The notes below the pieces were generated by a model. The model was given only the letters and a program-made list of their open reading frames with translations. It had not been told where the DNA came from and made no database searches. Position numbers and translations under genes: made by a program. Shown one piece after another: positions 11,653-18,183 of a DNA stretch of 64,000 nt (the first letter of the stretch is position 1; each line of letters starts with the position of its first letter). The DNA comes from Candidatus Methanophagales archaeon (GTDB lineage: Archaea > Halobacteriota > Syntropharchaeia > Alkanophagales > Methanospirareceae), in assembly GCA_024699715.1 (NCBI GenBank), contig JANPRD010000009.1, positions 1 through 64,000 on the forward strand, in the 5' to 3' direction.

Positions 11653-11666
11653 GAGAGAGGAGAGAG

Positions 11667-12743
11667 ATGTTTGAGGGGAAGGAAGAGAGGCGTTTGTTTT
11701 TGATTTCCGCATTCACAGTTTTTGCATTTTTTGCGGTTGTCTCTTTGCTTGCGACACTCGGCGGAGGTTTGGAGCCTGGGCGACCTTTCCTCACAATCGC
11801 AGGCGTGGACATCTCAGCATACGCAGAGAGCGTTAATAGAGCCATTTTGAATGTTTCCGTGTGCATTGACAACAGTGGAGACGCATACTCGGGCGAAGTT
11901 GAAGTGGAAGTGAAAGCTTACGACGCAGAAACGAATTTGTTAGTGGCAACAAACAGAACTACAGTCGGTAAAATCGCACCGAAGAAGTCCGAATATGCTT
12001 TCTGCTTGCTCTCGCTTCCGAAAGAGGGAGGCTACCGCATTGAAGTCGTTGTTTTTGAGAACGGAAAGGGCATACTGCGAGCGGAGCGCAAAATCTACGG
12101 GCTTGAGACGCTTGAACCTCCAGGGACAGCGAAAATTTCACTGCGAGAGCTGGACTTCATGGTCGCCTCTGTTGAGAGCGTCGGCGGTAAGGAATATGCG
12201 AAAATCAACACGACACTTTTTATTGACAATCTCGGCGGAGATGTCAGCGGACTGAAAGCACTTGTGAAGGCGAGAGACAACGAGACGAGGCTCATCGCAG
12301 ACAGGAAGTGGGTGGAACTCGGCACGCTGAAAAGCGGGACGACATCTTTGCGTTACGCCACATTGACCGTGCCGAACCGCCGAGACTACATCGTTGAGGT
12401 TCAAGTGTTTCAGCACGGAAGAATAATTAAGGAAAGCAGTGGAATGGTTCTACTCTCTCCTTTCGCAAATAGGACAGTTGTGCTTGAAGCGCAGGAGAAG
12501 CGGGTGGAAATCTCACCTTCGTTCAAAATATCCGATTTCATTCCGCTTGAGAAAGGTAGAATGCCCTATGCGACGCCGATTCCGAGGATTCCGAAGCCTG
12601 AAAGAGCGCCTGCACCGCCAGCCCAGCCGGGATTTGAGGCTTTATTCGCTCTCTCCGCCCTCGTCCTCACAGTCGTCTTAGGGAAGGCGAGGAAGGGAAA
12701 GAGCAGAAAGAGCAAAATGGAGGGAGAGCGTAGGAAGTTGTGA
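11667..12743 (+). CDS. PGF-CTERM surface protein with tandem CARDB-like domains (DUF7490-like)
   Basis: A 358-residue exported protein. Residues about 10-30 are a signal or membrane segment (LFLISAFTVFAFFAVVSLL). Two beta-sandwich repeats of about 120 residues follow (NVSVCIDNSGDAYSGEVEVE and NTTLFIDNLGGDVSGLKALV). The Pro-rich stretch ends in PGFEALFALSALVLTVVLGK plus a basic cluster, the PGF-CTERM tripartite sorting signal cut by archaeosortase A, which attaches the protein to a lipid. N-x-S/T sites are frequent, fitting N-glycosylation. ATG 11667 has GAGAGGAGAGAG upstream. Its 12-base spacing to the next small membrane protein suggests co-expression. Similar proteins occur in methanogens and Archaeoglobi; function unknown. 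Confidence 0.72.
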   Translation: MFEGKEERRLFLISAFTVFAFFAVVSLLATLGGGLEPGRPFLTIAGVDISAYAESVNRAILNVSVCIDNSGDAYSGEVEVEVKAYDAETNLLVATNRTTVGKIAPKKSEYAFCLLSLPKEGGYRIEVVVFENGKGILRAERKIYGLETLEPPGTAKISLRELDFMVASVESVGGKEYAKINTTLFIDNLGGDVSGLKALVKARDNETRLIADRKWVELGTLKSGTTSLRYATLTVPNRRDYIVEVQVFQHGRIIKESSGMVLLSPFANRTVVLEAQEKRVEISPSFKISDFIPLEKGRMPYATPIPRIPKPERAPAPPAQPGFEALFALSALVLTVVLGKARKGKSRKSKMEGERRKL

Positions 12744-13673: not shown

Positions 13674-13764
13674 GCGGATATTGTGAAGAAGAATTTCTCG
13701 TAGAAAAAGGTTAAAAAGTGTGTGAGAGGAGAGAGGAAAAAAAGGAGCGGAGGAGGGGAGCGTG

Positions 13765-14670
13765 ATGGAGAAATTTAATGAGCGGGCGAATGCCCTCGCA
13801 TCAGAATATTGGAGGTTAAAGCATCTCGCTTCAAAGGAGGAGGACGAAGAGAGGCTTGAAGAGATTGAAAGGCTCTTGGAGAAAGGCATCGGCGGTAAGC
13901 TGCGTGAGAAATTAGAGCGTGAGGCTCGCTTGCTTCGTCAGGCAAGAGAGGAGCGTAGTAATGCGATGCGAAATTTAGAGATTGTGAGGAACGAGCTTTT
14001 GGAGCTCACCGCAGAGTTCGCTCCTAATCTTGACCTTGCGGAAGGTTCTTTCTTCCCATACGACAGCGAACCCCTTTCTGAAGATTTCTTCAGGGCAATC
14101 ACAGACATTTTGTTCGGAAAACCTGAGAAAAGTATAGAGCTGAAGGAGGCATCTTTCTCAAAAGAAGGCATAAAAGTGAAAGTTGACGCTTCTCCACTCA
14201 GCATCCTCGACCATGTAATAACTATTTTGCAGGAGACTGCGAAGAAGAAGCTCGGATTACCGAACAAAATGGACGAGAGTTGGAGGAAACTTGCGCAGAA
14301 AGAGTATGCATTCGTCGCCCTGAATGTGCTTGTGAATGCGGAGCAGGCACTTCCATTTGAGGAAGTAAAGAGGATTTCGCATGAGAACGATAACGAATTC
14401 AAAGAGCTTGTGAAAGACGCTTATTATGACCGAAAATTGAGAGATGCGCTCTCTTTCCTTGCTGGCGACGGCTGGGAATACAAGCTCGTGACATCAAAAG
14501 GAGGAAAATACGAGGCGACAAGCTTCGGCGAATGGCTCTGGAAACTCTGCAATTCAGAAATGAAGAGAACGCTTAACAAAACAAACGGCAAAACAAACGG
14601 CGAAGAAAGAACAGGAATACTGCAAGAGCGCATGAGTATGCAGAAAATCATAAAATTCTTCAGGAAATAA
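13765..14670 (+). CDS. Coiled-coil protein with C-terminal winged-helix-like region
   Basis: A 301-residue soluble protein without a recognised family. Residues 1-85 are highly charged and heptad-like (coiled coil). The middle has a beta-rich stretch (SIELKEASFSKEGIKVKVDA). Residues about 170-260 look like one or two winged-helix units (LAQKEYAFVALNVLVNAEQA, then DALSFLAGDGWEYKLVTSKG). The C-terminus is Asn/Lys/Thr rich (LNKTNGKTNGEE). GTG 13762 or ATG 13765 may be the start; AGGAGGGG lies upstream. It stands two genes upstream of cetZ. Confidence 0.65.
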   Translation: MEKFNERANALASEYWRLKHLASKEEDEERLEEIERLLEKGIGGKLREKLEREARLLRQAREERSNAMRNLEIVRNELLELTAEFAPNLDLAEGSFFPYDSEPLSEDFFRAITDILFGKPEKSIELKEASFSKEGIKVKVDASPLSILDHVITILQETAKKKLGLPNKMDESWRKLAQKEYAFVALNVLVNAEQALPFEEVKRISHENDNEFKELVKDAYYDRKLRDALSFLAGDGWEYKLVTSKGGKYEATSFGEWLWKLCNSEMKRTLNKTNGKTNGEERTGILQERMSMQKIIKFFRK

Positions 14671-14786
14671 TTAACGAAAGGGGGAGAAGCGTCAAAGTGA
14701 CTGCGGAGCGGTGGCTGTAAGGGCAGCGTGGGTGCGTAAATTGTATTGTCTGGTTGTTGCGTTGGCGTTGAGAGGGGTGTGCTGTG

Positions 14787-15770
14787 ATGAGGAGCGGAAG
14801 GAGGCGTATTGAGAAAGAGAAAGTGATAGCTTACAGGCGTTCAAAGTTGTTTCCTTGGAATTTCATTTTTGAGGATGTTGAGCCTGCTGCGATTGAGCAT
14901 TTCGTTCCTTATGCGGTGCAAGTGCTCGGAGACCTAAGAAACAGTGGCGAGGAGAATGCAAAGACTGAGACTGAGGCTAAGGCGACGACAGAGGCGACAG
15001 AGGAGGCATTGGCATGGGCGTCATCCGCAACGGTGCGGAGAAGGATGTGGAGTGGCGGTGCGAGTAGTGTCGGTGCGAGCAGGGGGAGATTGAGAGGTCT
15101 GCGAGAGGAGCAAAAAGACGCAGAAGCGAGGAAAGGAGAAAAGGAGCGTTTGAGGGAGCGCATTCGTGAGGAGGTTCACCTTGCGGTCTCCGATTTCCTA
15201 TCTGACACGGACGACGAGGACGCCCTGAGGATGCACGGGGACTTCGCAATGCTTTTCCCATTTGCATTCTCGCAGTGCCTCGTTCAAGCGATGCTCCAGA
15301 AACTCAATCTTCGCTTGGAGGATGTAATAGATGTGCGTGCAATAAGCGAGTTGATGGGAGTAAGTGTGCGTGATATAAGGAGAAGGGAGGATTTTATCCG
15401 TGATTTGCTTGCTCATCAGCGTAATATGCGTTTTCTTGGGGCGAACATATTTGGGAAAAAGGTAATGTCTGCGGAGGGAGAGCGAATAGGTAGCGTTGCT
15501 GACATTATTTTTGATGCTGAAACGGGTGTATTACGAGGAATAATGGTGAAAACGGAAAAGCGAGAATGGGTGAAAGAGAGTGCTGCGAAAGAGGGAGAAA
15601 GAGGCGTGAGTTCAGCATCATCGGCGAATGAATCGCAGTTTGCGGAGAAGAGCGGGGAAGTGAAAAGAGGTGGCGTGGAAAAGCGTAAAGGTTTAGTATA
15701 TTTGCCCATTCAAGCAGTGCGCTTCAATTCCTACAACGGAGGTTTCGTGCTGAAATCCACAGTGTTCTAA
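14787..15770 (+). CDS. PRC-barrel domain protein (possible cell-division partner)
   Basis: A 327-residue protein. The N-terminal half holds an Ala/Glu/Thr-rich low-complexity linker (residues about 50-125) between short conserved parts. The C-terminus is a PRC barrel: GANIFGKKVMSAEGERIGSV, then DIIFDAETGVLRGIMVKTE, a Ser/Ala/Glu insertion, and GLVYLPIQAVRFNSYNGGFV. In haloarchaea the PRC-barrel proteins CdpB1/CdpB2 bind SepF at the division ring. The next gene here, 149 bases on, is the tubulin-like CetZ, so a cytoskeletal link is plausible but is inference. The barrel split by a disordered insertion is unusual. ATG 14787 follows a GTG at 14784. Confidence 0.72.
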   Translation: MRSGRRRIEKEKVIAYRRSKLFPWNFIFEDVEPAAIEHFVPYAVQVLGDLRNSGEENAKTETEAKATTEATEEALAWASSATVRRRMWSGGASSVGASRGRLRGLREEQKDAEARKGEKERLRERIREEVHLAVSDFLSDTDDEDALRMHGDFAMLFPFAFSQCLVQAMLQKLNLRLEDVIDVRAISELMGVSVRDIRRREDFIRDLLAHQRNMRFLGANIFGKKVMSAEGERIGSVADIIFDAETGVLRGIMVKTEKREWVKESAAKEGERGVSSASSANESQFAEKSGEVKRGGVEKRKGLVYLPIQAVRFNSYNGGFVLKSTVF

Positions 15771-15794
15771 AGCAGAATTTCAAACGAAAGAAAA

Positions 15795-15804
15795 TTTTTA
15801 TAAG
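15795..15804 (+). promoter_or_regulatory. TATA-like box before cetZ
   Basis: TTTTTATAAG occurs 116 bases before the cetZ ATG, in the gap after the PRC-barrel gene. The downstream leader is purine-rich and ends with GGGGGGAGTC next to the start codon, so cetZ probably has its own promoter. Confidence 0.45.
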
Positions 15805-15919
15805 GCGTGCAGGACGAATGTAACAGGAGGCGTGGAGGAAAGAGAGCGAAGAGAGAGAAGAAAATGTAGGAAAGGGTAAAATGGTAAGAGAGGCGAGGGG
15901 ATAAAGGGGGGAGTCAGGT

Positions 15920-17092
15920 ATGAAAGTGTTTGTGATAGGCTTCGGACAGGCGGGTGGTAAAATTGCGGACATGTTTATGAAGTTTGAGAAGGAGCGTCGC
16001 ATGGGTTGCATCGTCAGGGCGTTGGCGATAAACACCGCAAGGTCAGATTTGAAAGGTTTAGAACACATTCCGATGGAGGATAGGCTGCTAATTGGAGAGG
16101 CAATAGCGAAAGGACACGGCATCGGCGCTAATAATGAGCTGGGTGCAAGGGTCGCAATGGAGGAAATTCACACAATTCAGAGTGCAATTGACAAAAAAGG
16201 GACTCACTTGGTTGATGCTTTCCTAATTATTGCGGGTCTCGGCGGCGGAACAGGCTCAGGTGGCGCTCCAGTCCTCGCTCGCAGATTGAAGATGCTGTAT
16301 GATGAACCTGTCTATGGGCTTGGCATCCTTCCCGCTCGTGAAGAAGGCTCTTTGTATGCGTTAAATGCCGCTCGCAGCTTGAAAACTTTTGTTAAGGAGG
16401 TTGACAACTTATTTTTATTTGACAATGACGCTTGGAAGCGCTCTGGAGAGAGCGTGAAGTCCGCATACGAGGACATAAATATGGAAATAGTGCGACGCTT
16501 CAGCATACTTTTCGGCGCTGGTGAATCAAATGAAGTCGGTCAAATGGTCGTTGACGCTGCTGAAATCATAGAAACGCTCAGAGGCGGTGGCATCTCTACA
16601 ATCGGATACGCAGCAGAAGAAGTGAGCGAGGAATACGACGGCGGTGGAGGCGGCTTTCTGAAAATCTTCGGCAGAAAGAAAAAGACTTCCATTGAAACAA
16701 TTGACGGCGTCACTCGCATCCTTTCGCTTACGAAGCGTGCAATCGTCGGCAGATTGACGATTCCTTGCGATGTCTCAACCGCAGAGCGAGCGTTAATTAT
16801 TGTTGCGGGTCCGCCTGAGCATCTCAGCAGGAAAGGCGTTGAAAGTGCGAAACTGCGAATTGAAGAGTTAATCAGAGGCACAGAAGTGAGAGGCGGAGAT
16901 TTCCCCATTCCAAAGAGCAGGCATGTCGCAACTCTCGTCCTCTTCTCCGGCGTTTCTGACATTCCGAGAGTGAAAGAGCTTCAAGAAATGGCTGTCTCCG
17001 CTCAAGAGCAACTGAAAGAAATCTCAGAAGAGAAGCAGCGTGAATACGAAGAACTCCTCGAAAGCAGGGATGAAATAAAACCGCTGTTCTGA
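15920..17092 (+). CDS. cetZ: CetZ tubulin-like GTPase
   Basis: A 390-residue member of the FtsZ/tubulin superfamily, closest in pattern to CetZ (the archaeal cell-shape branch). VIGFGQAGGKIADMF starts the Rossmann core. AGLGGGTGSGGAP is the tubulin signature (G-box T4) and the NNELGA region follows the T3 loop. The T7 catalytic region appears as LFLFDNDAWKRSG with acidic residues; the FtsZ-type NxDxxD order is altered as in CetZ proteins. A Gly/Lys insertion (DGGGGGFLKIFGRKKKT) lies in the linker before the C-terminal domain. The C-terminus is a charged helix. The Shine-Dalgarno is GGGGGG. In Haloferax CetZ controls rod shape and motility rather than division; the same role here is inference. 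Confidence 0.88.
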   Translation: MKVFVIGFGQAGGKIADMFMKFEKERRMGCIVRALAINTARSDLKGLEHIPMEDRLLIGEAIAKGHGIGANNELGARVAMEEIHTIQSAIDKKGTHLVDAFLIIAGLGGGTGSGGAPVLARRLKMLYDEPVYGLGILPAREEGSLYALNAARSLKTFVKEVDNLFLFDNDAWKRSGESVKSAYEDINMEIVRRFSILFGAGESNEVGQMVVDAAEIIETLRGGGISTIGYAAEEVSEEYDGGGGGFLKIFGRKKKTSIETIDGVTRILSLTKRAIVGRLTIPCDVSTAERALIIVAGPPEHLSRKGVESAKLRIEELIRGTEVRGGDFPIPKSRHVATLVLFSGVSDIPRVKELQEMAVSAQEQLKEISEEKQREYEELLESRDEIKPLF

Positions 17093-17293: not shown

Positions 17294-18183
17294 ATGTTGA
17301 ACGCAAGGCATTTTGGCTTTTCCGTTCTGCTCGTTTTCTGCGTTTCTGCGCTGCTCTTCGCTGTGTCGGTGCCTGCGGCTGTCTCTACTGCACAGCTCGG
17401 CGACGGGGGTTCGGAACTGCTTCTGACACCTTTTTTGGAGAACAAGAGTTCAATCTCTTGCCCGGATAAATCCGCTCAAGAATTCCTTAATTCGTATGGA
17501 ATGCTGAAGAATGGCAGTGAATTCACGCTAAAAGTCACACTGACACCGACAAATTACAGCAAAGAGATAGGAAAAACGAAACTATTCCTCTACTCTTACT
17601 TCATAGACAGGGGAATTGAGCCTTCAATATGGGTGAACGATGAGAATATTGGCTACCGTAATCCTTTTGAAATGAATCCGGAGACGGATAAGAAGGTTGA
17701 AGTGATATTAAGCGCAGAAAGCACCAGAAGTAAGCGTAAAAGAACACCAATAACTCTGCTTAAAATTGTTCAAGAGACTTCAAAAGGAGAAATATTTAGT
17801 TGTGAATATTACGAAAAATGTCTCTTCTCCGCTGATAGAGGAGGCTCTTGCAGAGATAGAAAAGGCAAAAGATGAGATAGAGAAGGCGAAGAAAGTCATC
17901 AAATGAGACAGCTCGGAAGAGGCTTCCAAATTATCTGCAAACTGCTGAGTTGCACCTACGGAATGCGGAGAATGCTTATAACGAAGGCAGACCTGTGGAG
18001 GCTCGTGAAGAGGCGAAAAACGCAATTGAGAGCGCAAGGCTCGCATGCGAGAAGGCGAGTGCTGCGAGAGGCTTCGCAGGCATGCTGAAGCTCGTCGCCC
18101 TCGCTGTCGTCGTTGTCGTTGTCGTCATCGCAGTCCTGCTTCTGCTCTTGAAACGGCAGAGAGAGCGAGGAAAACTCGGCTGA
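17294..18183 (+). pseudogene. Membrane-anchored surface protein, two frameshifts
   Basis: Three frames make one protein. Frame one, from ATG 17294 after GGAGGGGG, has a signal peptide (LLVFCVSALLFAVSVPAAVS), then a beta-rich ectodomain with N-glycosylation sites (TPTNYSKEIGKTKLFLYSYF), and runs into a Cys/Arg-rich false tail ending at 17875. At about 17795 the next frame continues as YLVVNITKNVSSPLIEEALA and a Lys/Glu coiled coil ending KAKKVIK, stop at 17904-17906. At about 17903 the third frame continues ETARKRLPNYLQTAELHLRN, more coiled coil, and a Val-rich membrane anchor (LVALAVVVVVVVIAVLLLLL) with basic end. The joined form is about 295 residues: signal, ectodomain, coiled coil, anchor. 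Family not recognised. Two breaks argue for a dead gene or poor consensus. Confidence 0.65.

Follow-up and report, generated by a model that had tools for sequence, protein, structure and literature searches.

The described systems closest to the locus considered here are haloarchaeal CetZ and the proteins of archaeal cell division. In its accessible text, a survey of the genes around cetZ in Halobacteria and four further orders names sugar epimerases, cofactor and purine genes and type IV pili as cetZ neighbours (PMC9856176), and the available parts of two further papers deal with CetZ1 localisation and cell shape (PMC11621097, PMC10869688). On the division side, the accessible portions of the respective papers describe SepF as the archaeal FtsZ anchor (PMC8178401) and the PRC-barrel proteins CdpB1 and CdpB2 as stabilising the divisome (PMC12186497). 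Here, we analysed a window of 64,000 nucleotides of DNA from a Candidatus Methanophagales archaeon (class Syntropharchaeia, phylum Halobacteriota; contig JANPRD010000009.1), in which a cetZ gene is preceded by genes for two proteins, CC and PRC, and followed by a gene for a single-pass membrane protein, D. The published cetZ1 regions have the sugar epimerase, cofactor and purine genes as neighbours and not CC, PRC or D, as far as the accessible text of PMC9856176 goes, and nothing resembling D appears in the available parts of the two CetZ1 papers; the available part of a further paper concerns another setting, in which a haloarchaeal adaptin system is linked to a membrane protein and to a divergent protein resembling CetZ (PMC10936438). 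We consider it about evenly balanced that CC, PRC, CetZ and D form one membrane-linked CetZ module, with D as its likely anchor.

All four genes lie on the forward strand. The CC gene (13765-14670) encodes a protein of 301 residues, the PRC gene occupies 14784-15770 and the cetZ gene 15920-17092; these three are co-directional, with gaps of 113 bases (CC/PRC) and 149 bases (PRC/CetZ), confirming the claim of an earlier note, made from the DNA letters, that a PRC-barrel protein and a further protein precede cetZ. For CC, the ATG at 13765 agrees with the conserved start, and a GTG is present at 13762. The CetZ identity of the third gene is certain on sequence grounds: its product matches CetZ_C (E 1.7e-65, 220.3 bits against a cut-off of 21.6) and the tubulin/FtsZ GTPase domain (118.9 bits against a cut-off of 33), and it carries at residue 108 the sequence GGGTGSG, the glycine-rich GTPase motif. 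The best solved chain is 4b46_A, whose record reads FtsZ and which we take to be CetZ1 of Haloferax volcanii; the match is full-length (E 1.2e-138, residues 1-390 to 1-395). The protein ends in the peptide IKPLF (17075-17089), of a PLF type that is found in nearly all CetZ sequences listed.

An alignment search with CC yielded 44 named loci, and CC, PRC and CetZ stand together in 38 of them, from ANME-1 through lineages labelled Methanocellales, the intact loci including metagenome-assembled genomes outside the class that are labelled Methanocellales or Methanosarcinales (L168, L170, L172, L174). Three of the six remaining loci end at a contig edge (L144, L175, L179), two belong to genomes with CetZ elsewhere (L167, Alkanophaga; L178, Syntrophoarchaeum), and in one (L137) the contig continues for ~2 kb with no CetZ. 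The nearest named relative of CC, from Candidatus Methanoxibalbensis ujae, is 67% identical, which makes an ANME-1c-like archaeon the probable source of the window. The genes that flank the cluster vary among lineages while the set itself is kept. The earlier note had suggested that the trio may be a cytoskeletal unit, a proposal that depended on conservation of the gene order. Since this order holds in 38 of the 44 loci, the unit is well supported on genomic grounds, although it is a quartet and not a trio, D, directly after cetZ, having been overlooked.

The distribution of the genes points the same way. Among the 58 genomes of the class, CC was found in 43, PRC in 53 and CetZ_C in 41, and among the 392 genomes of the phylum, CC was found in 55 and CetZ_C in 281. 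Within the class, 39 genomes have both CC and CetZ, 4 have CC only, 2 have CetZ only and 13 have neither (Fisher test, 6.7e-8, with no account taken of relatedness or genome incompleteness); in three of the four CC-only genomes the cluster is cut at a contig edge, and the clearest absences of CC and CetZ are those of genus g11 (6 of 6 genomes) and genus g4 (5 of 7). Full-length or edge-cut PRC matches are confined, among the matches listed, to the class and to families f11, f17, f20 and f29, which are also the four families with CC outside the class, and elsewhere just the barrel part of PRC is matched. In a CetZ tree made from a chosen subset of rows, some of those labelled with CC coming from genomes without a CC match (G053/L118, G130/L254), a branch with SH-aLRT 91 separates the CetZ proteins of the CC lineage (28 rows) from the others, a position that fits one origin of the CC-CetZ pairing. 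No match was obtained when viral contigs were searched with the CC alignment. A cluster of the ANME-1 type, with CC, PRC and CetZ, was also seen at a locus titled Candidatus Nitrosotalea (L146, DYFG01000004.1), which is probably a mislabelled bin.

Clustering of the neighbouring genes revealed that a family of proteins of ~285 residues, D, lies directly 3' of cetZ in 36 loci including the window; it is in a single frame in 35 of the 44 named loci, the copy at L145 being shortened by the contig end. Sequence and hydropathy indicate that D has an N-terminal hydrophobic signal, an outer part with helical segments and, close to its C-terminus, a single membrane helix that is followed by a short basic tail. 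In the window, the D gene (17294-18183) consists of three co-linear pieces in three frames, recognised by comparison with the L136 protein (17309-17791, 17760-17903 and 17935-18180) and by the one-frame homologues that follow cetZ; the frame changes are either sequencing error or decay. No curated family reaches its cut-off in D (nine members searched by Pfam and six by NCBIfam), and the best hit in a sequence search of solved structures (E 0.00036) was a designed binder that looks similar through its helices. Where CC-PRC and CetZ have been separated, D remains with CetZ (L118, L121-L124), and the two co-occur in the class: 39 genomes have both, 1 has D only, 2 have CetZ only and 16 have neither (Fisher test, 3.1e-11), the window's broken D being counted as present and partial weak profile matches as absent. 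Further CetZ copies of ~357-450 residues that lie apart from the CC-PRC cluster in ANME-1 genomes (L119 and L126-L132, from G003, G004, G006, G050, G051 and G052) have no D match. In genome G032, the CetZ beside CC-PRC is broken by a stop into two pieces (L082, 428-1603) and a second contig carries an unbroken PRC-CetZ-D stretch (L133).

D is a more general finding than the trio, and a candidate anchor. Its profile matches 152 of the 392 genomes of the phylum, many of these matches being partial and weak, and D lies directly 3' of cetZ in 61 of 80 CetZ loci examined across the phylum, that is in 47 of 60 loci hand-picked for family spread once the D profile results were known, hence not blind, with 7 in the CC lineage, and in 14 of 20 drawn from genomes without D among the matches listed; the profile used for the phylum loci had been rebuilt with matches from the 60-locus set. 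Sorted by position in the CetZ tree, D follows cetZ in 7 of 7 loci of the CC lineage, in 31 of 31 of its sister clade and in 23 of 42 of the rest. The cytoplasmic tail of D, RGKLG in the window (18166-18180), reads [WY]D[EKR]LG in many relatives: this pattern was found in 44 of 60 D proteins (L230 excluded) against 0 of 1016 control open reading frames, which were the other frames of at least 200 residues at the same loci, and a looser pattern was found in 56 of the 60 against 11 of the 1016, including 1 of the 13 control frames with a C-terminal membrane-like segment. In family f22, none of ten loci (L217-L225, L274) has D after the examined CetZ, and these genomes are absent from the D matches listed; the haloarchaea-like CetZ proteins seem to differ by subfamily in having D. 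Two loci of f18 genomes (L210, L270) combine a CetZ that lacks PLF with an odd D tail; we make no claim that the tails of CetZ and D co-vary, a proposal that crown ANME-1 counts against.

The alternative that survives best, although we judge it rather unlikely, is that CC and PRC are mainly a CdpB-like accessory set of FtsZ division, CetZ and D being mere neighbours. In 21 of the 44 named loci, CC and an ftsZ gene are arranged head to head, and FtsZ-like reading frames face PRC in the same way in four loci that have neither CetZ nor CC (L112-L115); a profile check covered four of these head-to-head FtsZ proteins, including one whose locus lacks CC. Class genomes that lack CetZ can still retain PRC, which is therefore not tied to CetZ alone. 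The protein contains a PRC-barrel match over profile positions 4-46 of 78 (E 1.8e-9), the sole curated domain above its cut-off, and in an AlphaFold2 model built from 42 sequences (pLDDT 79.7, pTM 0.71) the barrel spans about residues 214-327 of 327. This barrel resembles A. fulgidus PRC1/PRC2 and CdpB chains (8onw, Z 9.4 over 77 residues with a root-mean-square deviation of 2.4; 8qzo, Z 8.2 over 75 residues with 2.2) and also MTH1859 (Z 8.3); a Foldseek search with the whole model returned nothing at E <= 0.001. Against this alternative, CC is lost together with CetZ and not with FtsZ. The FtsZ matches of the window genome lie on contigs C9 and C13 (and its SepF match on C11), so the ftsZ neighbourhood is not universal, and among the named loci it was not seen outside ANME-1. 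The two FtsZ matches on C13 (116192-117139 and 123788-124735, minus strand) are near-equal and ~7.6 kb apart and, with the third FtsZ on C9, raise the possibility of a recent ftsZ duplication.

The architecture of PRC also differs from that of the known division proteins. CdpB is a short protein, mainly barrel, that pairs with a second PRC protein and contacts SepF; solved CdpB chains have 150-168 residues, while PRC has 328 in the window and ~230-280 in relatives and, unlike CdpB, has conserved regions ahead of the barrel, namely an N-terminal segment and a helical domain. The relation to CdpB drawn by the earlier note thus holds for the fold of the C-terminal part and not for the full-length protein, and PRC was not accepted as a CdpB ortholog; two further PRC matches in the window genome, in short frames of 97-98 residues, are closer to CdpB in size. 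CdvA, a protein of ESCRT-type division whose PRC barrel is N-terminal and precedes a coiled coil, likewise joins a barrel to helices and shows a weaker barrel likeness (9s9i, Z 6.8, 62 residues), but the aligned part is the N-terminal end of the CdvA chain (residues 6-68) and the barrel of PRC is C-terminal; moreover, CdvA adjoins CdvB and PRC adjoins CetZ. The barrel of the window PRC is indeed interrupted, as the earlier note had it, by an insertion with a low-confidence core (model residues 272-296, 15600-15674) flanked by two confident barrel parts, yet in the relatives shown the loop at this site is shorter or absent, with more residues there in L102 and in the nearest relative, L136. The long insertion is confined to the window species and was rejected as a functional hallmark; a second low-confidence stretch, at residues 82-97, is likewise absent in relatives. 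Two genomes (G013 and G014; L111, L134) carry a second long PRC protein of ~229 residues, more divergent and not near any CetZ.

A second alternative, which we regard as improbable, is that CC is a DNA-binding winged-helix protein, acting either in a TubZRC-like movement of DNA or as the transcriptional regulator of the operon. In the AlphaFold2 model of CC (43 sequences, pLDDT 84.8, pTM 0.78), a helical hairpin at the N-terminus is followed by an alpha/beta part in the middle, the winged helix (~165-275), a disordered linker and a C-terminal helix, so that the label of coiled-coil protein given by the earlier note describes CC incompletely; CC as a coiled coil alone was rejected. No curated domain reaches its cut-off in CC, a sequence search of solved structures gave a best E of 0.092 and Foldseek with the model found nothing at E <= 0.001. 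Structural alignments, whose rows cover mainly the CC winged helix and the PRC barrel and barely test the remaining parts for fold, match the winged helix to RosR (Z 10.3), to TubR (6aht_B, Z 9.7), which in TubZRC is also a winged helix encoded beside a tubulin-like GTPase, and to many MarR proteins, but the scores are level with one another and the fold is a common one. CC further departs from TubR in its extra domains and in its charge, the winged-helix domain having a median net charge of -8 (43 sequences, range -14 to 7), although that of the window protein is 0. The TubZRC centromere is an iteron array near the genes, and no iteron-like array was found in four intergenic stretches of the window, which held just short two- or three-copy matches. 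Finally, CC bears a C-terminal amphipathic helix, a candidate membrane-targeting helix (model residues 292-300, 14638-14664), with the highest hydrophobic moment within the window protein (0.78; median 0.77 over the 43 sequences); the helix is modelled with low confidence, and in most members hardly any other stretch of the same protein reaches its moment (median fraction 0.003; L168, 0.22). That the gene order is inherited linkage between functionally unlinked products is slightly less credible still: all CC-lineage CetZs may share one origin, but the set has persisted through changes in its flanking genes, genomes tend to lack CC, CetZ and D jointly, and the tail of D is kept across the phylum.

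A scan for bacterial-type promoters and terminators gave results close to chance level, and a single-protein scan of the genome contigs gave no match. Upstream of the cluster, the window encodes at 11664-12743 a likely surface protein with DUF7490 and CARDB matches and a weak PGF-CTERM match.

The favoured reading, a single membrane-linked CetZ module, draws directly on the gene order, on the joint presence and loss of the genes, on the anatomy of the domains and on conserved tails. In this module, CetZ, a protein type characterised by GTP-dependent polymerisation, would form a tubulin-like filament, and D, with its helical domain exposed on the outer side and a short conserved tail in the cytoplasm, would be the membrane receptor or anchor that binds CetZ and couples its filament to the envelope. 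CC would use its C-terminal amphipathic helix to attach to the membrane and would adapt or regulate CetZ together with PRC. The module might thereby influence the shape of the cell or its division; in ANME-1, PRC may additionally have a link to FtsZ division and may bridge the CetZ and FtsZ systems. The likeness to SepF is one of analogy alone, in that D would likewise tether a tubulin-family filament to the membrane: no SepF domain (PF04472) was found in the window CC, PRC or CetZ or in nine D proteins, searched to E 1 (one D scan to E 0.1).

Several observations weigh against this module. The co-occurrence tests take no account of relatedness or genome incompleteness. PRC persists in class genomes that lack CetZ, D is broken across three frames in the window itself, and in crown ANME-1, D ends in RGIY or similar while CetZ retains PLF. 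Across the phylum, D does not follow cetZ in 19 of the 42 loci with the remaining, haloarchaea-like CetZ rows.

A broader version of the module is more tentative than the module itself: D might anchor CetZ across much of the phylum, with CetZ, or specifically its C-terminal PLF region, as the docking site of the [WY]D[EK]LG tail and with the outer helical domain gripping the S-layer or sheath, and CC-PRC might have been added once, in ANME-1 and relatives, where they would couple the system to FtsZ division.

The earlier note's suggestion that such a unit had not been described for this lineage stands within the literature searched. No paper combining ANME-1 and CetZ was found in a search with preprints and most subscription papers outside its scope; in titles and the beginnings of abstracts, papers on CetZ with PRC-barrel, membrane anchor, haloarchaea, transmembrane protein or genomic neighbourhood do not describe the set, and those on ANME-1 with cytoskeleton or cell shape gave one incidental mention of ANME-1. 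How CetZ is held at the membrane and what its filament targets are questions left unsettled in the accessible parts of the CetZ literature covered. The presence of D after cetZ in much of the phylum, together with its strongly conserved five-residue tail, makes the question of anchoring directly testable, and the set provides candidate cytoskeletal partners for ANME-1, which are methane-consuming archaea.

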